DNA from: Streptantibioticus parmotrematis
GTDB lineage: Bacteria; Actinomycetota; Actinomycetes; Streptomycetales; Streptomycetaceae
Direction: 5' to 3'
DNA length: 64,000 nucleotides
Assembly (NCBI RefSeq): GCF_019890615.1
Contig: NZ_JAINVZ010000002.1
Coordinates: forward strand, 124,001-188,000
Position numbers and translations under genes: made by a program. Every line of letters starts with the position of its first letter. The stretch's first letter is position 1. Below are positions 20,980 through 56,485 of the stretch, piece by piece. The notes beneath the pieces were generated by a model. That model did no database searches. It had not been told where the DNA came from and saw nothing but the letters and a program-made list of their open reading frames with translations.

Positions 20980-21002
20980 CTGTCAGTGCCGCCGCCTAGA
21001 CT
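20980..21002 (+). promoter_or_regulatory. DNA-damage type promoter (RecA-NDp / PafBC motif) for pcrA
   Basis: CTGTCAGTG-N8-TAGACT matches the consensus TTGTCRGTG-N8-TAnnnT except for the first base. The -10 box ends 9 nt before the pcrA ATG at 21012. In mycobacteria this promoter is activated by PafBC after DNA damage, independently of LexA. A DNA-repair helicase is a sensible target. Confidence 0.7.
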
Positions 21003-26527: not shown

Positions 26528-28312
26528 CTACGCGTCCGGGGCCAGCTCCGCGTACATCGCTGCCCGCAGCCGCAGCGTCCCCACCAGGCGCTGGAACGCC
26601 TCCGACCAGTAGCCCCCGGCGCCGGGCGAGCCGTCCGGCGGTTCCTCGGGTATCGCGGTGAGCGGCTCCAGCCGGTCCGCCTGTGCCGGGTCGAGACAGC
26701 GCTCCGCCAGGCCCATCACCCCGCTGAAGCTCCACGGATAGCTGCCCGCCTCCCGGGCGATGTCCAGCGCGTCCACCACCGCCCGGCCCAGCGGTTCCGC
26801 CCACGGCACCGCGCACGCCCCCAGCAGCTGGAACGCCTCCGACAGCCCGTGCGCCGCGATGAACCGCGTCACCCACGCCGCCCGCTCCTCGTGCGGCAGC
26901 ACCGACAGCAGCTTCGCCGGATCGCCCACCACCGACGCCGTGCCGCCCGCGTCCGCCCGCTCCGGCGGTGGCCCGAGCAGCGCCCGCGCCCAGTCGGCGT
27001 CCCGCTGCCGCACCGCGGCCCGGCACCAGGCGGCGTGCAGGTCCGCCTGCCAGTCGTCGGCCACCGGCAGTGCCACGATCTCCCCGGGCGCCCGCCCGCC
27101 CAGCCGCTCCGTCCATATGCCCAGCGGCGCGGCCTCCACCAACTGCCCCAGCCACCAGGCCCGTTCGCCCCGGCCGGACGGCGGCTTGCGGGCCACCCCG
27201 TCGCGTTCCATCGCCGCGTCACACTCGTGCGGCGCCTCCACCACGACGCGCGGACCGACCCCCGTACGGTCCAACGCCACGCAGCTGATCGCCCGCGCCC
27301 CCATCCGCCCGGCCAGCGCGGAACCCGGCAGACCCGCCAGCAACTCCGCCGCCGTCGCCCGCACGTTGCGGCTGCGGTCGGCGAGCGCCTGCTCCAGGAA
27401 CGGCTCGTCGTCCGCCGACAGCCGCTCCCGCAACGAGTCCAGGAACATCAGCCGGTCCTCGGCCCGCTCCTTCGCCCACGTCGAACGCAGCAACGCCAGC
27501 CCCTCGGCCGAATCGCGCTCCCGTATCGAGGTCAGCACCGCGACCCGCTCCGCGAACAGCCCCTCCTCCCACAGCCGTCGTGCCGCCTCCGGCTCGTCCG
27601 CCGCCCGCCCCGCCGCGCCGCGACCGCCGGAACGCAGCGCGAACCGCCAGTCCGGGTTCAGTTCCGCGAGCCACAGCCCGCGCGGCCCGGCCAGCGCCAG
27701 CGCGTCGGGCCGCAGGTCGGTCCTGGCCCGCGCCGCGTCCAGCAACGCGGGCAGCGCGGCGTCCGGCGCGCGGTAGCCGTGGGCCGTGGCCGCCGCCAGC
27801 CACTGCGGCAGCAACTCCGCGAGCGCCGGAGCCGTCCCGCGCCGGCCCCCGCCGCCCGAACCCCCGGCGCCCACGCGGTCGCTGAGCAACATGGTGAGCC
27901 GGTCCCGGGCCGCCGCGGGCAGCGGCGGCCGGGGGTCGTGCTGCGCGGGCACGGGACGCGGCGCGGCGGTCGGCGGCCGCAGGCCCGCGCGTCTGCGTAC
28001 GGTCTCCACGGCTGCGGCGTCCAGCAGCGCACGGGCCGGATCGTCACCCGCGCCGTCCAGGCGGGAGGCCGCCCGCCGGTCCGTCCCGAGCAGGGCGGCG
28101 GACAACAACTCCTCCCAGGAGGGGAGGGGTCGGTCTCGGCTCTCGCGGACCTCCGGTGCGTCCCGCCCACCCGGCGCGGTGCGAGCGCCCGGCCGCCGAC
28201 CGGACGCGGGCCCGCCCGGCGGCCCGGACCCCGCCGACCTCCCGGGCTCCTCAGGATGCGCGCTGCCCGTGTCGGCCCCGGTCGCGGGTGGACGCGGTGT
28301 CGTCAGTGCCAT
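26528..28312 (-). CDS. DUF5691 family protein
   Basis: Encodes 594 residues, helical and soluble. After a disordered Pro/Gly-rich head (about 1-60), PSWEELLSAALLGTDRRA marks the DUF5691 start. A HEAT-like stretch follows near 285-345 (LFAERVAVLTSIRERDSAEGLALLRSTW, DRLMFLDSLRERLSADDEPFLEQALADRSRNVRATAAELLAGLPGS). The enzyme role is unknown. In Streptomyces it accompanies SWIM, MoxR, DUF5682 and vWA genes, as here, and is probably a scaffold for them. ATG 28312 has GGGGGAGAG 7 nt upstream. The region before it holds three copies of a palindrome. Confidence 0.8.
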   Translation of the reverse strand: MALTTPRPPATGADTGSAHPEEPGRSAGSGPPGGPASGRRPGARTAPGGRDAPEVRESRDRPLPSWEELLSAALLGTDRRAASRLDGAGDDPARALLDAAAVETVRRRAGLRPPTAAPRPVPAQHDPRPPLPAAARDRLTMLLSDRVGAGGSGGGGRRGTAPALAELLPQWLAAATAHGYRAPDAALPALLDAARARTDLRPDALALAGPRGLWLAELNPDWRFALRSGGRGAAGRAADEPEAARRLWEEGLFAERVAVLTSIRERDSAEGLALLRSTWAKERAEDRLMFLDSLRERLSADDEPFLEQALADRSRNVRATAAELLAGLPGSALAGRMGARAISCVALDRTGVGPRVVVEAPHECDAAMERDGVARKPPSGRGERAWWLGQLVEAAPLGIWTERLGGRAPGEIVALPVADDWQADLHAAWCRAAVRQRDADWARALLGPPPERADAGGTASVVGDPAKLLSVLPHEERAAWVTRFIAAHGLSEAFQLLGACAVPWAEPLGRAVVDALDIAREAGSYPWSFSGVMGLAERCLDPAQADRLEPLTAIPEEPPDGSPGAGGYWSEAFQRLVGTLRLRAAMYAELAPDA

Positions 28313-28400
28313 GGCTGCTCTCCCCCTTCTGATCGTGTCGTTCTGCATCAGGGCTCACGCTGTCGATCCCGTGAGCGCGGTCGTGCCCGTGCGTGCCCTA

Positions 28401-28489
28401 CGCGGTCACGACCGCGCGCGCCGTGCGCGGTCTCGCGGTCACGACCGCGCGGTTGACGCCTGCGCCTCAGTCACGCGGCCACGACCGCG
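28401..28489. promoter_or_regulatory. Three copies of the palindrome CGCGGTCACGACCGCG
   Basis: The 16-bp dyad (arms CGCGGTC/GACCGCG) occurs at 28401-28416 and 28434-28449, and with one change at 28474-28489. They lie between the SWIM gene end (28557) and the DUF5691 start (28312), both on the minus strand. They may be operators for DUF5691 or a set of transcript-end hairpins. They are short enough that both readings stand. Confidence 0.5.
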
Positions 28490-28556
28490 TGGTGGCCCCT
28501 GCGCCTCGCCGGACGGCATCGCGGCGGCCGACCCCCGTACGGCTGCCGCGCGGCGC

Positions 28557-29987
28557 TCACAGCCGTACCGGGTCGCCCGGGGCCTGCGGTGACCAGGCCG
28601 TCAGGGGCGTGAAGCCGCGATGGCCCAGCGAGCCGAAGACGGTGACCGGGGTGCCGCCCGAGACCGCGGCCAGGCGCCACAGGCCCGGGCGGTCCAGGCG
28701 CCGGGGATCCACGGGCAGCGCCGAGTCGCCCTCCGCGTCGGCCAGTTGCCAGCCGTGCGCTGTCGGCACCGGCACGACCGGGCCCAGCACGACCGGCCAC
28801 TCGTCCAGCCACGGATCGGCGCGCAATGCCTCCCCGTACGCCCCGAGCGCGTCGCCGACCGCCACTGCGGGCGGTATTCGGCCCGGCTCCGGCGCACCGT
28901 GCTGAGGTCCGAGCGCGGCGCGCAGCGGGACGGCGCCGGGGTGGTAGGCGAGTTCGGCGTCGACGATCCGGCCGACCGGCAGCGACAGCTCAGGCGTCCG
29001 GCCCGTCGCGCCGAACCCCAGCAGCAGCGCGGCACGCCCTCGTTCCGCAGCGAGCAGCCATATCCGCCGGGTCGTCAACTGCCCCTCCAGCGCATCCTGC
29101 TGGGACAGCACCAGCCAGCGGTCCCGCACGGTCGGGCCGGCCAGCAGCTCCGCGGTGTCCGCGGTGAAGCCGACCCGGGTGCGGACGGTGGCCGCCAGGC
29201 CCTCGGGCAGCCCGTCGCACCCCAGGTAGCCGCGGGCCAGCAGGTGCAGCAGGCTCTGCTCCTCCAGCAGCCGCGTCGGCCAGTCCCCGCCGGAACCCGG
29301 TATCACCGCCAACTCTCTTGTCCAGGAGGCCAGTCCGGGAGCCTGGGCGTCCATCATGCGGGCTGCCACCTCCTGCCAGATCCGGCGGTCCTCGTGGCCC
29401 GCGGAGGCCAGGCCCGACCGCAGGCTGTCGGCCAGTCGCTGGTCCAGCTCCGCCGCCCCGGCCGCCACCCGGGACGCCCTGCGCTCCGCCCTGCGCCGGG
29501 CCGCCGCCGGATCGGCCACCTCGGCCCTGGGCGTGCGGCGCCGCGTCGCCGTGGCCTGACGCCCCGCCCGCCACTCCCGCACCCAGTCCGGCGGCTCGGC
29601 CGCCGCGACGCCGCCCTCCCGTCCCTGGGACCACAACAGGAGCAGGCCCAGGGCGTGTTTGCACGGGAACTTGCGGCTGGGGCAAGAACACTTGAACGCG
29701 GGAGCGGTAACGTCCACGACCGTGCGGTACGGGGTCTTGCCGCTGCCCGCGCACAGGCCCCAGACCATGAGGACGCCGCCGCCCGGCTCCCCGTCTTCCC
29801 CGTCCGCGCGTGCCGCCTCGACGCCCTTGGCCGTGCCCTCGCCGCCCGGCGGCGCGCACCCCTCCGACAGGCCCGTGCCGGACCACGGGCCGGGCACGCC
29901 GAGCTTGGTGCCCGCCTTGCTTGACGCGGCGTCAGGAGCGAGTGCGAGCACTTGCCCGGCCGACCACCGCTGTTCGGTGTCCTCCAT
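28557..29987 (-). CDS. SWIM zinc finger family protein
   Basis: Encodes 476 residues. The SWIM motif CxC-x6-CxH is at Cys100, Cys102, Cys109 and His111 (FKCSCPSRKFPCKHALG). SWIM domains bind zinc and nucleic acid or protein. The rest is a long mostly helical region (RIWQEVAARMMDAQAPGLASWTREL, LLEEQSLLHLLARGYLG) and a beta-rich C-terminus, with no other known motif. The ATG follows TAGCGT by 7 nt and has no ribosome site, so it is leaderless from a DNA-damage type promoter. It is divergent from the MoxR operon, and a gap of 244 bp separates its end from DUF5691. Confidence 0.88.
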   Translation of the reverse strand: MEDTEQRWSAGQVLALAPDAASSKAGTKLGVPGPWSGTGLSEGCAPPGGEGTAKGVEAARADGEDGEPGGGVLMVWGLCAGSGKTPYRTVVDVTAPAFKCSCPSRKFPCKHALGLLLLWSQGREGGVAAAEPPDWVREWRAGRQATATRRRTPRAEVADPAAARRRAERRASRVAAGAAELDQRLADSLRSGLASAGHEDRRIWQEVAARMMDAQAPGLASWTRELAVIPGSGGDWPTRLLEEQSLLHLLARGYLGCDGLPEGLAATVRTRVGFTADTAELLAGPTVRDRWLVLSQQDALEGQLTTRRIWLLAAERGRAALLLGFGATGRTPELSLPVGRIVDAELAYHPGAVPLRAALGPQHGAPEPGRIPPAVAVGDALGAYGEALRADPWLDEWPVVLGPVVPVPTAHGWQLADAEGDSALPVDPRRLDRPGLWRLAAVSGGTPVTVFGSLGHRGFTPLTAWSPQAPGDPVRL

Positions 29988-29994
29988 GTCCGCA

Positions 29995-30017
29995 ACGCTA
30001 CGAGCGGCCACTGACAA
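29995..30017 (-). promoter_or_regulatory. DNA-damage type promoter (RecA-NDp / PafBC motif) for the SWIM gene
   Basis: Read on the minus strand, TTGTCAGTG-N8-TAGCGT is an exact match to TTGTCRGTG-N8-TAnnnT. The -10 box ends 7 nt before the ATG at 29987, so the transcript should be leaderless. It is 39 bp from a divergent copy that faces the MoxR operon. Confidence 0.75.
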
Positions 30018-30055
30018 TCGGTTCTGACCTGCGGTTTCACCGGTCCGGAGAGGCG

Positions 30056-30078
30056 TTGTCAGTGGTCGGGTGCAAGGT
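30056..30078 (+). promoter_or_regulatory. Near-match DNA-damage promoter for the MoxR operon
   Basis: TTGTCAGTG-N8-CAAGGT matches the consensus except for the first base of the -10 box. With the divergent copy at 29995-30017 it would let one activator switch on both arms of the cluster. The 5' UTR would be about 90 nt. Confidence 0.6.
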
Positions 30079-30105
30079 GGATTCGCAGGCGGCCCACGGG
30101 GGTTG

Positions 30106-30139
30106 GACGAGGGCCGTGCTGCCCGCGCACGGCCTCGTC
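30106..30139 (+). other. Hairpin in the 5' UTR of the MoxR operon
   Basis: GACGAGGGCCGTGC (30106-30119) pairs with GCACGGCCTCGTC (30127-30139) around a 7-nt loop, with one bulged G. It lies between the promoter and the ATG at 30177. It may be an attenuator or only an RNA-stability element. Confidence 0.45.
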
Positions 30140-30176
30140 CGGGCGCGGCCGTTTCCACATTTGTCAGGGGGACGTC

Positions 30177-31427
30177 ATGTCGGACAACAGGGTCGGAGAG
30201 CCGGAGAACAGGGCCCAGGGACCAGGGGCCAGGGCCGAGGAATCAGAGATCAGGGCGGACGAGGCGGCGGTCGCCAGGGCGGGGGGACCGGTGGCCGGGG
30301 CGGAGGAGTCGGCCGCCAGGGCGGAGGGAGCAGGGACCGGGGCGGAGGAAGAGGTTCTCAGGCCGCACGCCGAGGACGCCTTCGCGTACGAGCTGAAGGC
30401 GCTGGCCGCCGCCGACGACCGCCCGCGCCCGGCGCGTTGGAACCTCTCGCCGTGGGCCGTCGCCACCTATCTCCTGGGCGGGGTGCTGCCGGACGGCACC
30501 GCGATCTCGCCCAAGTACGTGGGCCCGCGGCGGATCGTCGAGGTCGCCGTGACCACGCTCGCCACCGATCGCGCGCTGTTGCTGCTGGGAGTGCCGGGGA
30601 CGGCCAAGACCTGGGTGTCGGAGCACCTCGCGGCGGCCGTCAGCGGCGACTCGACGCTCCTGGTGCAGGGCACCGCGGGCACGCCGGAGGAGGCGATCCG
30701 GTACGGCTGGGACTACGCCCGGTTGCTCGCCCACGGGCCCAGCCGGGACGCGCTGGTGCCCGGTCCCGTCATGCGGGCGATGTCGGGCGGCGGCATCGCG
30801 CGCGTCGAGGAACTGACCCGCATCCCGGCCGACGTGCAGGACACGCTGATCACGATCCTCTCCGAGAAGACGCTGCCGATACCGGAGCTGGGCCAGGAGG
30901 TGATGGCGGTACGCGGCTTCAACCTGATCGCCACCGCCAACGACCGCGACCGCGGGGTCAACGACCTGTCCAGCGCGTTGCGCCGACGCTTCAACACGGT
31001 GGTGCTGCCGCTGCCCGCCACGGTCGAGGACGAGGTGGACATCGTCGCCCGTCGCGTCGACCAGATGGGGCGCGCCATCGACCTGCCCCAGGCCCCGCCC
31101 GGCGCCGACGAGATCCGCCGCGTGGTCACCGTCTTCCGCGAACTGCGCGACGGCGTCACCGCGGACGGCCGCACCAAGGTCAAGTCGCCCTCCGGGACGC
31201 TGTCCACGGCCGAGGCGATCTCGGTCGTCACCGGCGGCCTGGCCCTCGCCGCCCACTTCGGCGACGGGGTGCTGCGCTCCGCCGACGTGGCCGCGGGCAT
31301 CCTCGGCGCCGTCGTCCGCGACCCGGCCGCCGACCGTGTCGTCTGGAACGAGTACCTGGAGTCCGTGGTCCGCGAGCGCGACGGCTGGAAGGACTTCTAC
31401 CGGGCCTGCCGGGAGGTGAGCGCATGA
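30177..31427 (+). CDS. MoxR-type AAA+ ATPase
   Basis: Encodes 416 residues. The first 60 residues are low complexity with repeated RAE/ARA units, in purine-rich DNA. The AAA+ core follows: Walker A LLGVPGTAKTW (about 136-146), the Walker B-like strand GGGIARVEELTRIPADVQD, sensor 1 in LIATANDRDRGVNDLSSALRRRFN with the arginine finger, and a C-terminal lid. MoxR ATPases remodel protein complexes together with vWA-domain partners, and one is encoded two genes downstream. GGGGGA precedes ATG 30177. The stop overlaps the DUF5682 start by 4 bp. It is probably DNA-damage induced. Confidence 0.92.
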   Translation: MSDNRVGEPENRAQGPGARAEESEIRADEAAVARAGGPVAGAEESAARAEGAGTGAEEEVLRPHAEDAFAYELKALAAADDRPRPARWNLSPWAVATYLLGGVLPDGTAISPKYVGPRRIVEVAVTTLATDRALLLLGVPGTAKTWVSEHLAAAVSGDSTLLVQGTAGTPEEAIRYGWDYARLLAHGPSRDALVPGPVMRAMSGGGIARVEELTRIPADVQDTLITILSEKTLPIPELGQEVMAVRGFNLIATANDRDRGVNDLSSALRRRFNTVVLPLPATVEDEVDIVARRVDQMGRAIDLPQAPPGADEIRRVVTVFRELRDGVTADGRTKVKSPSGTLSTAEAISVVTGGLALAAHFGDGVLRSADVAAGILGAVVRDPAADRVVWNEYLESVVRERDGWKDFYRACREVSA

Positions 31428-33904
31428 CCACCCCGAAGCCCCCGTCCCCCCGGCCTCCCCGGTCGCCGGACGACGCGGTGCGGCTGCTGGGCGTACGGCA
31501 CCACGGGCCCGGCTCGGCCCGCGCCGTACGGTCCGCGCTCGATCAGTACGACCCGCAGGTCGTGCTGATCGAGGGGCCGCCCGAGGCGGACGCGGTCGTG
31601 GACATCGCGGCCGACGAGGGCCTGCGCCCGCCGGTGGCGCTGCTGGCGCACGCCGCCGACGAGCCCGCGCGGTCCGCGTTCTGGCCCTTCGCGGAGTTCT
31701 CGCCGGAGTGGGTGGCGATCCGCTGGGCGCTCGAGCGCGGCGTCCCGGTCCGCTTCATCGACCTGCCCGCGTCCAACTCCCTCGCGATGGGCGGTGGTTC
31801 GGCGGGCGCGGGACCGGACGAACCGGCGGGGGTGGCTCCCGACGAGGACGCTGCAACCGAGGACCCCGTTCGCATCGACCCCCTCGCCGTGCTCGCGCAG
31901 GCCGCCGGGTACGACGATCCGGAGCGATGGTGGGAGGACGCCGTCGAGCACCGCGGAGGCGTGGACGACGGCGGTGACGCGCTCGCGGCGTTCGAGGCGG
32001 TGGCCGAGGCCATGGGGGAGTTGCGCGAGCGGTACGGCGACGGCGGGCATCCGCGCGACGCGGTCCGCGAGGCGCACATGCGGTTGCGGCTGCGGGAGGC
32101 GCGACGCGCGTACGACCGTACGGCGGTGGTGTGCGGCGCCTGGCACGTGCCCGCGCTCGCCGCCCGTACGACCGTGGCCGCCGACCGCGCGGTGCTCAAG
32201 GGGCTGCCCAAGGTGAAGGCCGAGGTCACCTGGGTGCCGTGGACGCACCGGCGGCTGAGCCGGGACAGCGGGTACGGCGCGGGGATCGACTCGCCCGGGT
32301 GGTACCGGCACCTGTTCGGCTGCCGGGACCGGCCGGTGGAGCGGTGGATGACCAGGGTCGCGGGGCTGCTGCGGGCGGAGGACCGGCAGGTCTCCAGCGC
32401 GCACGTCATCGAGGCGGTCCGGCTCGCCGGGACGCTGGCGGCGATGCGCGGGCGTCCGCTGGCCGGACTGGGCGAGACGACGGACGCGGTGCGGGCGGTG
32501 ATGTGCGAGGGCTCGGACGTCCCGCTGGCGCTGATCCGTGAACGGCTCGTGGTCGGCGACGAGATGGGGGAGGTGCCCGACTCCGCGCCCGCCGTCCCGC
32601 TCGCCCGCGATCTCGCCCGGCAACAGCGCGCGTTGCGGCTCAAGCCCGAGGCCGCCGACCGCGAACTCGATTTCGACCTTCGCAAGGACACGGACGCGGG
32701 CCGCAGCAGGCTGTTGCACCGGTTGCGGCTGCTGGGCGTGGAGTGGGGCGCGCCCACGCGTTCGCGCACCGCGGGCACGGGGACGTTCCGCGAGACGTGG
32801 CGGCTGAGCTGGGAGCCGGAGTTGACGGTCCGGGTGGCCGAGGCGGGCGTGTGGGGGACGACCGTGGAGTCCGCCGCCGTCGCGAAGGCCGAGGACGTGG
32901 CGGCGGCCGCCGCGACGTTGGCCGAGGTGACCGGGCTCGCCGAGCGGTGCCTGCTGGCCGCGTTGCCGGACGCGCTGCCGACCGTGATGCGGGTCCTCGC
33001 CGACCGGGCCGCGCTCGACGCGGACGTGATCCACCTCGCCGAGGCGCTGCCCGCGTTGGTGCGTTCCGTACGGTACGGGGACGTGCGCGGGACGGACTCC
33101 GGCGCGCTGCGGGAGGTCGCCGAGGGGATCGCGGTCCGGGTCTGCGTGGGGCTGCCGCCCGCCTGTGCGGGACTAGACGACGACGGCGCGGCCGGGACGC
33201 GTCCGCACCTCGACGCCGTCCACGCGGCGGTGGGCCTGCTGACCGGGGCCGGTGACGCGTTGCGGGAGCGCTGGGCCGGGACGTTGCGCGCGCTCGCCGA
33301 ACGGTACGGCGGCGTACCGGGGTTGATACGCGGGCGGGCGGCCCGGCTGCTGCTGGACGACGGGCTGCTCGACGCGGAGCGGGCCGCGCGGCTGATGGGC
33401 CTCGCGCTGTCGCCGGGCACCGAGCCACGGCAGGCGGCGGCCTGGGTGGACGGCTTCCTGTCCGGCGGCGGCATGTTGCTGCTCCACGACGAACGGCTGC
33501 TGGGGCTGGTGGACGCCTGGCTGTCGTCGGTTCCGGCGGAGGCGTTCACGGATGTGCTGCCGTTGGTGCGCAGGACGTTCGCCGGGTTCGAGTCCGGAGT
33601 GCGGCGCGGGGTGGGCGAGTTGGTGCGGCGCGGGTCCGGGTCGCCTGGTGGCTCGGCGAAGGCTCCGGGCGCCGCGATGGGCTTCGGTGCCGGGCTGGAC
33701 CTGGCGCGCGCCGATGCCGTGCTGCCCACGCTCAGGCTGCTGCTGGGGACCGCCGCGCAGGCGCCCGTGCCGGCCGCCGCACCGGAGCCTGTGCCGGCCG
33801 CCGCGCCGGATCCAGCCCCGGCCGCAGGCCCGTTGCCCGCACTCGCCGGGGCCCCCGCCGCGGGCGCCACCACCATTCACGACGACGCAGGAGGCTCCGA
33901 ATGA
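31424..33904 (+). CDS. DUF5682 family protein, EreA/TraB/ChaN-like fold suspected
   Basis: Encodes 826 residues. The N-terminal 250 residues carry motifs in the order seen in the TraB/PrgY/EreA/ChaN superfamily: GVRHHGPGSARAV (about 23-35), VVLIEGPPEAD (47-56), and VVCGAWHVPAL (about 234-245) with an upstream EAHMRLRLREARRAY helix. This suggests a metal- or acid-dependent hydrolase. The rest is long, mostly helical, without known motifs, and ends in a Pro/Ala-rich tail. It sits between the MoxR and vWA genes with 4-bp overlaps on both sides, so the three are made together. The superfamily assignment is my inference from motifs; the DUF assignment is more certain. Confidence 0.8.
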   Translation: MTTPKPPSPRPPRSPDDAVRLLGVRHHGPGSARAVRSALDQYDPQVVLIEGPPEADAVVDIAADEGLRPPVALLAHAADEPARSAFWPFAEFSPEWVAIRWALERGVPVRFIDLPASNSLAMGGGSAGAGPDEPAGVAPDEDAATEDPVRIDPLAVLAQAAGYDDPERWWEDAVEHRGGVDDGGDALAAFEAVAEAMGELRERYGDGGHPRDAVREAHMRLRLREARRAYDRTAVVCGAWHVPALAARTTVAADRAVLKGLPKVKAEVTWVPWTHRRLSRDSGYGAGIDSPGWYRHLFGCRDRPVERWMTRVAGLLRAEDRQVSSAHVIEAVRLAGTLAAMRGRPLAGLGETTDAVRAVMCEGSDVPLALIRERLVVGDEMGEVPDSAPAVPLARDLARQQRALRLKPEAADRELDFDLRKDTDAGRSRLLHRLRLLGVEWGAPTRSRTAGTGTFRETWRLSWEPELTVRVAEAGVWGTTVESAAVAKAEDVAAAAATLAEVTGLAERCLLAALPDALPTVMRVLADRAALDADVIHLAEALPALVRSVRYGDVRGTDSGALREVAEGIAVRVCVGLPPACAGLDDDGAAGTRPHLDAVHAAVGLLTGAGDALRERWAGTLRALAERYGGVPGLIRGRAARLLLDDGLLDAERAARLMGLALSPGTEPRQAAAWVDGFLSGGGMLLLHDERLLGLVDAWLSSVPAEAFTDVLPLVRRTFAGFESGVRRGVGELVRRGSGSPGGSAKAPGAAMGFGAGLDLARADAVLPTLRLLLGTAAQAPVPAAAPEPVPAAAPDPAPAAGPLPALAGAPAAGATTIHDDAGGSE

Positions 33905-35226
33905 CCGCGACGCGAAACGCCGTACCGGAGGCGGCCGTCGAGGCCCCCGTGGCGGACGGTGACGAACGGCTGCGCCGGTGGCGGCTGGTGCTGGGCGGCG
34001 GGGAGGCGGACGGCACGGGCTGCGTGCTCGGTGGCCGTGACGCCGCGATGGACCGCACGCTCGCCGCGTTGTACGGCGGCGGGGCGGAGGGCGGCTCCGG
34101 GAGCGAACGGGCCGCCGGGCTCGGGGGTTCGGCGCCGCGGGTCGCCCGCTGGCTCGGCGACATCCGCACCTACTTCCCGTCGTCCGTGGTCCAGGTGATG
34201 CAGCGCGACGCGATCGAACGGCTCGGGCTGTCCGCCCTGCTGCTGGAACCCGAGATGCTGGAGGCCGTCGAGGCGGACGTGCACCTGGTCGGCACGCTGC
34301 TGTCGCTGCACCACGCGATGCCGGAGACCACCAAGGCGACGGCCCGCGTGGTCGTCGACAAGGTGGTGCGCGACCTGGAGCGGCGGATCGCCACCCGCAC
34401 CCGTTCGGCGCTCACCGGAGCGCTCGACCGGTCCACCCGCGTCAACCGCCCCCGCCACCGGGACATCGACTGGGACCGGACCATCCGCGCCAACCTGCGC
34501 AACTACCTGCCCGAGTACCGCACCGTCGTGCCCGAGCGGCTGGTGGGCCACGGGCGGGCGGCGCGCGGCGTGACGAAGGACGTCGTGCTCTGCGTCGACC
34601 AGTCGGGGTCGATGGCGTCGTCGGTGGTGTACGCGTCGGTGTTCGGCGCGGTGCTCGCGTCGATGCGGTCGATCGCGACGAAGCTCGTGGTCTTCGACAC
34701 CTCCGTGGTGGACCTCACCGATCAACTCGACGACCCGGTGGAGGTGTTGTTCGGCACGCAGCTGGGCGGCGGCACCGACATCAACCGCGCCCTCGCCTAC
34801 TGCCAGACGCTCATCACCCGTCCCGCCGACACGATCGTCGTCCTCATCAGCGACCTGTACGAGGGCGGCATACGCGACGAGATGCTGGCGCGGGTGGCGG
34901 CGATGAAGGCGGCCGGCACGCAGTTCGTCGCGCTGCTCGCGCTGTCCGACGAGGGCGCGCCCTCCTACCTACGACCGGCAGCACGCGGCGGCGCTCGCCG
35001 CGCTGGGGGCGCCCGCGTTCGCCTGCACGCCCGACCTCTTCCCCGACGTGATGGCGGCGGCCATCGAGAAGCGCCCGCTGCCGGTGCCGGACCCGGAACT
35101 GGACGGCACGCCGCTCACGACGGAGCACTGACGCCGGGCGCCTGCGGCTCCGGGCCGCCGACGCCCGGTGACGGACCGCGCATAGACGGACCGCGCATAG
35201 CGGACATGACCCCGCATCAGCCGTAA
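33901..35226 (+). CDS. vWA domain protein, C-terminus altered by a 4-bp frameshift
   Basis: The open frame gives 441 residues. The vWA domain starts near 226 with a full MIDAS set: DQSGS (Asp233, Ser235, Ser237), Thr in GGGTDINRAL (about 292) and Asp in VLISDLYEGG. The helical first half matches vWA proteins that work with MoxR ATPases. After SDEGAPSY (about residue 356) the protein turns into Arg/Gly/Pro-rich sequence. CTAC is duplicated at 34965-34972. Removing one copy restores a natural end (DRQHAAALAALGAPAF, then DLFPDVMAAAIEKR) that stops at 35131. So either this strain has a frameshift or the sequence has an error. The start overlaps DUF5682 by 4 bp. Confidence 0.82.
   Translation: MTATRNAVPEAAVEAPVADGDERLRRWRLVLGGGEADGTGCVLGGRDAAMDRTLAALYGGGAEGGSGSERAAGLGGSAPRVARWLGDIRTYFPSSVVQVMQRDAIERLGLSALLLEPEMLEAVEADVHLVGTLLSLHHAMPETTKATARVVVDKVVRDLERRIATRTRSALTGALDRSTRVNRPRHRDIDWDRTIRANLRNYLPEYRTVVPERLVGHGRAARGVTKDVVLCVDQSGSMASSVVYASVFGAVLASMRSIATKLVVFDTSVVDLTDQLDDPVEVLFGTQLGGGTDINRALAYCQTLITRPADTIVVLISDLYEGGIRDEMLARVAAMKAAGTQFVALLALSDEGAPSYLRPAARGGARRAGGARVRLHARPLPRRDGGGHREAPAAGAGPGTGRHAAHDGALTPGACGSGPPTPGDGPRIDGPRIADMTPHQP
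34965..34972 (+). other. CTAC duplication causing a frameshift in the vWA gene
   Basis: The bases read CTACCTAC between a codon for Ser and GACCGG. With a single CTAC the frame continues for 52 normal, well-folded-looking residues to TGA at 35129-35131. With two copies the frame runs into low-complexity sequence to 35226. The downstream frame keeps strong GC third-position bias, which shows that it was coding until recently. Confidence 0.75.
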
Positions 35227-55612: not shown

Positions 55613-55635
55613 TTGTCAGTGGTCGCTGCCAAGCT
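55613..55635 (+). promoter_or_regulatory. Near-match DNA-damage promoter for the VOC gene
   Basis: TTGTCAGTG-N8-CAAGCT matches the consensus except for the first base of the -10 box, the same change as at the MoxR promoter. The 5' UTR would be about 50 nt. Confidence 0.55.
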
Positions 55636-55693: not shown

Positions 55694-56485
55694 ATGCTCA
55701 CCACGCGATACGTGCCGGGAGCGCCCAACTGGGTCGACCTCGGCACGCCCGACACACAGGCCGCCGCCGAGTTCTACGGCGAGCTGTTCGGCTGGGTCTT
55801 CCGCTCGGCCGGGCCCGAGGCGGGCGGCTACGGGATGTTCACCCTGGACGGCGCCACGGTGGCGGCCGTGGGACCGCTGACCGAGGAAGCCGCCACCTCG
55901 GCCTGGACGCTGTACTTCACCACCGCCGACGCGGACGCCACGGCCAAGGCGGTCGAGCAGGCGGGCGGGCAGATCCGCTCGGGGCCGTACGACGTCTTCA
56001 CGGCGGGCCGGACGGCGGGGCTCACCGACCCGACGGGGGCGGAGTTCGCCGTCTGGCAGCCCGGCGGCACCAAGGGTCTGGACGCGGTCACCGACCCGGG
56101 CACGCTGTGCTGGACGGAACTCCACAGCACCGACCCGGCCCGGGCGAAGGACTTCTACGCCTCGGTCTTCGACTGGGACGCCCAGGAGTCGCCGATGGAG
56201 GGGTTCACGTACACGGTCGTCAGCCCCACGGGGGCGGGTGCCGAGGCGGCGCACGGCGGCATCATGCCGGTCGCGGAGAACCTCGTGGCGGCCGGGACAC
56301 CGTCCGGCTGGCGGCCCTACTTCGAGGTCGCCGACGCGGACGCGGCCGCCGCGACGACGGGCGCCCGGGGCGGAAGCGTGATCATGCCTCCGGAGGAGAT
56401 ACCCGGCGTGGGCCGCTCCGCGGTCCTGGCGGACCCGTTCGGCGCGCTGTTCGCGGTCATCACGAGCGCCCCGGCGGCGGCGTAG
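55694..56485 (+). CDS. VOC family protein with two glyoxalase-like domains
   Basis: Encodes 263 residues as two tandem VOC modules: PNWVDLGTPDTQAAAEFYGELFGW (about 10-120) and LCWTELHSTDPARAKDFYASVFDW (about 137-255). Landmarks include GLTDPTGAEFAVWQP and AVLADPFGALFAVI. The superfamily covers glyoxalase I, fosfomycin and bleomycin resistance proteins; actinobacterial double-VOC proteins like this are mostly uncharacterised. GAGGAG lies 8 nt before ATG 55694. The damage-type promoter upstream hints at toxic-compound binding. Confidence 0.92.
   Translation: MLTTRYVPGAPNWVDLGTPDTQAAAEFYGELFGWVFRSAGPEAGGYGMFTLDGATVAAVGPLTEEAATSAWTLYFTTADADATAKAVEQAGGQIRSGPYDVFTAGRTAGLTDPTGAEFAVWQPGGTKGLDAVTDPGTLCWTELHSTDPARAKDFYASVFDWDAQESPMEGFTYTVVSPTGAGAEAAHGGIMPVAENLVAAGTPSGWRPYFEVADADAAAATTGARGGSVIMPPEEIPGVGRSAVLADPFGALFAVITSAPAAA

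Follow-up and report, generated by a model that had tools for sequence, protein, structure and literature searches.

A YehL-type MoxR-vWA gene cassette of Streptantibioticus parmotrematis with twin divergent promoters of the RecA-NDp/PafBC type

A five-gene cassette encoding a SWIM zinc-finger protein, a DUF5691 protein, a MoxR AAA+ ATPase, a DUF5682 protein and a CoxE-type vWA protein was analyzed in a 64,000-nt stretch of Streptantibioticus parmotrematis DNA (contig NZ_JAINVZ010000002.1, positions 124,001 to 188,000). This whole stretch is called the window, and coordinates follow its numbering. The SWIM and DUF5691 genes (- strand) and the MoxR, DUF5682 and vWA genes (+ strand) flank two divergent promoters. 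Pfam placed all five domains where a preliminary description of the locus had put them, and the two damage-type promoters that it reported within 39 bp of each other were also located, with 39 bp between their 5' ends (30017 vs 30056). The features are as follows.

26528..28348, - strand: DUF5691 protein, 606 aa from the ATG at 28348 (Pfam PF18944, E 4.8e-176)
28557..29987, - strand: SWIM zinc-finger protein, 476 aa (Pfam SWIM, E 1e-5)
29995..30017 (5' end 30017), - strand: RecA-NDp/PafBC-type promoter of the SWIM arm, TTGTCAGTG-GCCGCTCG-TAGCGT, N8 spacer, exact match
30056..30078, + strand: RecA-NDp-like promoter of the MoxR arm, TTGTCAGTG-GTCGGGTG-CAAGGT, N8 spacer
30177..31427, + strand: MoxR AAA+ ATPase, YehL-type (Pfam AAA_5, E 1.4e-36)
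31424..33904, + strand: DUF5682 protein (Pfam PF18934, E 5.2e-296)
33901..35131, + strand: CoxE-type vWA protein (Pfam VWA_CoxE, E 1.3e-52), frame broken

The PafBC promoter architecture described in Mycobacterium tuberculosis is TGTC[AG]G-N10-TA-N3-T (PMC8151990), and the SWIM arm meets this consensus exactly. The -10 box with 8-bp spacing that had been proposed for each arm was thus upheld for the SWIM arm (TAGCGT), whereas the MoxR arm carries CAAGGT (CANNNT) rather than TANNNT. Because its upstream block is exact and its -10 box is of the CA type, the MoxR arm is termed RecA-NDp-like and not a strict regulon member. The start of the SWIM gene was set at the ATG at 29987, replacing the start at 30158 of the open reading frame (ORF) list; this ATG lies 7 nt past the -10 box, giving a leaderless message, and the same spacing is repeated in 23/40 family members. 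The conserved domain of the DUF5691 protein covers residues 80-602, and its HEAT-repeat signal is weak (E 0.067, under the Pfam cut-off). In the vWA gene, a CTACCTAC tandem duplication (4-bp CTAC) near 34967 (window 34960-35131) shifts the frame. The listed ORF end at 35226 is an artefact, being out of frame past the break, and the conserved tail (YDRQHAAALAALGAPAFACTPD...), which 41 related vWA sequences have in frame, runs on in another frame to 35131. The frameshift is either an assembly or sequencing error or a genuine lesion of the source strain.

The exact TA-form motif occurs 14 times in the 7.4-Mb source genome, compared with 0 for a reversed-pattern control. Allowing one mismatch gave 82 copies vs 3 in the reversed control, and the CA form gave 9 vs 0. 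The occurrence of the motif in this genome is not due to chance. Exact sites lie upstream of recA, uvrB (divergent from an ogt-type gene), ruvC, a gene for a rarA-type ATPase and others, as judged from the translations. Two adjacent WYL ORFs (C23:194029-195204) are arranged as PafB-PafC would predict and form a candidate PafBC pair. PafBC has been reported to be activated by single-stranded DNA (PMC11804915), and an RecA-NDp promoter together with UV induction was shown earlier for SCO6735 of S. coelicolor (PMC5087735).

Two further sites were seen in the window. A one-mismatch RecA-NDp site at 20980-21002 on the + strand, CTGTCAGTG-N8-TAGACT, stands 9 nt ahead of an ATG whose product starts MSSLFDDNFLA and is a PcrA/UvrD-like helicase by sequence; a second CA-type site at 55613-55635 on the + strand, TTGTCAGTG-N8-CAAGCT, precedes a glyoxalase/bleomycin-resistance-fold protein at 55697. 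Genome-wide, some 80 near-matches (contigs C6, C8, C23 and others; L001-L014) constitute a candidate PafBC regulon.

DUF5691 was detected in 118/121 Streptomycetaceae genomes, and the promoters were surveyed at 44 Streptomycetaceae loci with divergent arms. The motif was found in the MoxR arm at all 44 and in the SWIM arm at 39/44, so that both promoters occur together in 39/44. Across these divergent relatives the -10 box is invariably TA in the SWIM arm and invariably CANNNT in the MoxR arm (44/44), and information content peaks in the motif, with low-information flanks. Genes on either side of the cassette, including sucC/sucD-like genes, are common to 8/8 relatives examined. The cassette resembles the RecA-NDp/PafBC regulon in promoter architecture and leaderless start, as seen for recA and uvrB of the source genome, and differs from it in the constant CANNNT of the MoxR arm and in appearing in no regulon list among the papers found. 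A 2022 study of S. venezuelae reported an apparent lack of conservation of the PafBC motif and left a RecA/LexA-independent response in Streptomyces open (PMC9380542); for the Streptomycetaceae, the enrichment and family-wide conservation observed here disagree with that report. Control of the cassette by PafBC, and with it damage induction, is likely from these sites, though not proven. A LexA-type GAACN4GTTC was absent upstream of the actinobacterial cassettes save for one site inside L167, which is probably a chance occurrence. Separately, sites of the form TTGTCAGTG-N5-GTGCA-NNN-TGG make up a distinct subclass, seen repeatedly in many Streptomycetaceae genomes both at the MoxR arm and elsewhere, with zero reversed-control matches in 122 genomes.

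Outside the Streptomycetaceae, the actinobacterial cassette forms one co-directional operon. The motif was present near the SWIM start in 12/19 loci from four actinobacterial lineages (Nocardiopsidaceae 3/3, Streptosporangiaceae and relatives 4/7, Pseudonocardiaceae 2/4 and Kribbellaceae 3/5), against a chance expectation of 0.007-0.016 per equal stretch. The sites of Pseudonocardiaceae and Kribbellaceae have one mismatch and a CA -10 box.

The neighbourhood had been described as conserved in Streptomyces. Linkage and order are indeed kept, but they are not limited to that genus: the order SWIM-DUF5691-MoxR-DUF5682-vWA was recovered in at least eight phyla (Actinomycetota, Cyanobacteriota, Planctomycetota, Pseudomonadota, Bacteroidota, Chloroflexota, Armatimonadota, with Chthonomonas, and Deinococcota), the cyanobacterial record being accompanied by an Obscuribacterales metagenome-assembled genome (MAG). 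DUF5682 was found in only 21/296 Actinomycetota genomes sampled. Several Micromonosporaceae and one Isosphaeraceae MAG encode SWIM and DUF5691 as a single fused reading frame, and plasmid-borne copies carry all five genes together. A sister arrangement of DUF4132, MoxR, DUF5682, vWA and SWIM is found in E. coli (yehI-yehL-yehM-yehP-yehQ) and Iodobacter, and in shuffled order in Sinorhizobium; one plasmid Yeh-type version adjoins restriction-modification genes. The cassette is thus an ancient, widespread and uncharacterised YehL-type set rather than a Streptomyces speciality.

Three other arrangements were noted. One Streptomyces genome (L070:1939-12700) has an exact RecA-NDp motif ahead of WGR-DUF4132, MoxR, a YehM-type DUF5682 and vWA. 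In a second actinobacterial system (L063, L065-L069), DUF5682 and vWA are fused in a single protein adjoining MoxR, and a third (L071-L074) comprises a gene X, vWA, MoxR and a distant DUF5682, with a RecA-NDp site about 0.4-0.7 kb upstream in 3/4.

Comparison with E. coli by phmmer matched MoxR to YehL (E 3e-69), DUF5682 to YehM (E 7.6e-31) and vWA to YehP (E 4.9e-66). The SWIM protein gave no pairwise match to YehQ at E 10, the two having only the Pfam SWIM zinc finger in common. The yehLMPQ cluster has MoxR, DUF5682 and CoxE-type vWA in like order plus a SWIM protein; it differs in that the SWIM gene comes last there and first here, and in lacking DUF5691 while having DUF4132 (yehI) close by. 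The region upstream of yehLMPQ showed no SOS box. Seven MoxR subfamilies are recognised, YehL among them (PMC3893208), and pairs of MoxR and vWA proteins use ATP to activate other proteins (PMC3893208; PMC7159879). In the MoxR protein, Walker A reads GVPGTAKT, and an acidic pair EE (GGIARVEEL), conserved in orthologues, stands where Walker B has DE; its solved relatives by sequence are NorQ and midasin. The metal-ion-dependent adhesion site (MIDAS) of the vWA protein is intact (DQSGS, GGGTD and SDLYEG). The pair shares a MoxR AAA+ protein and a CoxE-type MIDAS vWA co-chaperone with NorQ-NorD, CoxD-CoxE and RavA-ViaA, which have other gene partners and another client. The predicted MoxR-vWA ternary conflict systems (PMC7159879) have the same MoxR and vWA core, but no VMAP, iSTAND, FtsH or beta-propeller was found by Pfam and no fused effectors occur in the cassette. 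Membership in these systems was set aside, the third component being absent in the Pfam scan.

The DUF5682 protein had been described as carrying motifs in the order of EreA/TraB, and this order was recovered as an invariant series in 44 sequences: GxRHH, E, REAxMR and CGAxH, with G9, R11-H13, E36, R201-E202-M205, G224-A225 and H227 invariant. It is the order of the TraB/EreA/ChaN catalytic-type series (GxxH ... E ... R(E/D/N)xxM/W ... GAxH). DUF5682 lies outside the corresponding Pfam families (PF01963, PF05139) in the Pfam scan and, at about 760 aa, is far larger, its C-half being a helical repeat. An AlphaFold2 model (pLDDT 88.3, pTM 0.83) predicted an alpha/beta N-domain followed by a long helical repeat, an alpha-solenoid. 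With this full-length model as query, Foldseek against the BFVD viral models gave a TraB family protein as clear top match (E 0.008, probability 1.00, TMt 0.39). Profile comparison gave TraB as the best match (P 0.0017, compared with 0.058 or worse for reversed and unrelated controls), and its alignment pairs REAHMRLRLREAR..VVCGAWHVPA with QRNLAWRDKLRAM..VVAVGALHLYG of YbaP on the catalytic-type motif. These structural and profile results give weak independent support to the motif evidence, and the N-domain is quite probably, though not provenly, related to TraB/EreA.

The zinc ligands of the SWIM protein, CxCx6CxH, are invariant in 42 orthologues (C100, C102, C109 and H111). This protein was modelled alone, since an alignment that combined fused with single SWIM/DUF5691 proteins came out misaligned and was dropped. 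The model (pLDDT 90.6) has a beta-rich, perhaps OB-like C-half, and its best PDB matches by Foldseek are the OB-folds of HIN, RPA, LEF-3 and SSB.

We propose, tentatively, that the locus is the actinobacterial form of a YehL-type cassette, in which a MoxR/vWA activase of a TraB/EreA-like hydrolase is targeted to nucleic acid and, in the motif-bearing lineages, placed within the damage regulon; this explanation may well be right, although it falls just short of being probable. It is preferred because it accommodates the five-gene order in many phyla, the SWIM-DUF5691 fusions, the DUF5682-vWA fusions of a sister system, the Yeh homologies, the twin promoters, the motif before repair genes, the WYL pair, the invariant DUF5682 motifs, the TraB matches, the non-significant resemblance of the SWIM model to OB-fold DNA binders and the Streptomyces Yeh-type relative that pairs WGR-DUF4132 with MoxR-DUF5682-vWA behind the exact motif. 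In most Streptomycetaceae the cassette would have come apart into two divergent arms, both under PafBC-type promoters, and a build-up of single-stranded DNA would raise both arms together. The SWIM protein, through its zinc finger and predicted OB-like half, may recognise nucleic acid, with DUF5691, at times fused to it, as a putative helical scaffold. In DUF5682 an alpha-solenoid would bear a hydrolase-like domain of the TraB/EreA superfamily. The MoxR ring and its MIDAS-bearing vWA adaptor would work on DUF5682, or on its complex with the target, activating or remodelling it at the expense of ATP. Since DUF5682 is the constant neighbour of MoxR-vWA, an activase for a TraB/EreA-like hydrolase is the simplest model; DNA contact, the activase role and the substrate are inferred. 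In sister systems, WGR/DUF4132 may serve as an alternative nucleic-acid-contacting scaffold. In Deinococcus, depletion of DdrO elicits a response of DUF4132/WGR proteins, and MolR of E. coli has been described as part of the LexA regulon (PMC8533742), which could be an indirect, parallel link to damage. A bolder form of the proposal, a DNA-damage effector class not described before in which a MoxR/vWA machine deploys a TraB/EreA-like hydrolase at OB/SWIM- or WGR-marked sites in eight or more phyla, under paired PafBC control in Streptomycetaceae, seems unlikely in its entirety.

Several observations weigh against the proposed damage-linked hydrolase machine. The motif had been expected to precede orthologues of both arms; it does so at the divergent Streptomycetaceae loci, but it is absent in several actinobacterial families and other phyla (0/7 Micromonosporaceae, 0/7 Mycobacteriales, 0/3 Micrococcaceae and 0/16 other-phylum loci). 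The regions upstream of 18 non-actinobacterial loci yielded no convincing SOS box, the one pattern seen being of alpha type, in a Massilia. Some Streptomycetaceae genera have DUF5691 and DUF5682 on one strand without the motif, which suggests an origin of the inversion inside the family. The damage link of the cassette is lineage-specific, and a motif limited to some lineages cannot define the general function of the cassette. The MoxR-arm -10 box deviates from the PafBC consensus, and the vWA gene of the source strain is frameshifted close to the C-terminus. The supposed fold kinship of DUF5682 with EreA/TraB drew weak support for TraB from the BFVD and profile comparisons; the full-length model retrieved only helical repeats from PDB, none significant, and profile comparison with EreA gave no significance. 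None of the PDB matches of the SWIM model was significant in Foldseek either (E >=0.067). To our knowledge, the cassette is also without known biochemical activity.

Some of these points would fit a general maturation chaperone, in which MoxR-vWA serves the maturation of some unrelated metalloenzyme or large complex, with DUF5682 as a non-hydrolase cofactor-binding or chaperone subunit and the damage promoters as a late, lineage-specific capture. The characterised pairs RavA-ViaA, NorQ and CoxD mature other complexes (PMC3893208), the solved MoxR relatives NorQ and midasin point the same way, and the damage motif was not found beyond some actinobacteria. But there is no conserved metalloenzyme client in the cassette or sampled flanks, the five genes travel together, plasmids included, and DUF5682 keeps its catalytic-type residues without exception, so that we regard this explanation as a minority prospect. 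A DNA-repair complex that clears or remodels nucleoprotein on damaged DNA, with SWIM/OB contact, MoxR force and DUF5682 perhaps as a peptidase removing protein from DNA, would account for a promoter class common to recA, uvrB and ruvC, for the nearby pcrA-like gene with its own near-motif and for the WGR accessory domain of a relative, and would agree with the DdrO and LexA associations of DUF4132/WGR and MolR (PMC8533742). It appears improbable, given that the Pfam domains of the cassette include neither a nuclease nor a helicase or ligase, that the motif occurs in some lineages only, that the OB match is not significant and that no phenotype is known.

The preliminary description had also raised defence. 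An anti-phage or conflict system related to the MoxR-vWA ternary systems, with DUF5682 as effector and priming by phage-induced DNA damage, draws on the use of MoxR-vWA pairs to power predicted conflict systems (PMC7159879) and on the plasmid-borne Yeh-type versions, including the one beside restriction-modification genes. A defence role is disfavoured here, and very improbable, because PADLOC gave no convincing match for the five proteins and ten sampled flanking proteins, no cassette relative was found in viral contigs and the locus is a syntenic, near-universal core locus of Streptomycetaceae; no variable effectors were seen, and the bpMoxR Pfam match fell under its cut-off. Since plasmid copies exist, such a role is possible elsewhere.

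The gene set itself is a variant of a known, uncharacterised cluster, while the literature searched, which excluded subscription literature, seems to contain no report of the paired damage promoters, of their conservation or of a TraB/EreA assignment. That search found no paper on DUF5682 and nothing on SWIM with MoxR or with DNA damage, and the SiwR paper (PMC10693628) is unrelated to the cassette. The promoters described here provide a regulatory foothold on an E. coli "y-gene" cluster without assigned function, with laboratory Streptomyces as a tractable system, and they bear on the open question of the PafBC motif in Streptomyces (PMC9380542). If DUF5682 is indeed a TraB/EreA-type hydrolase, a large protein family would gain a candidate activity.

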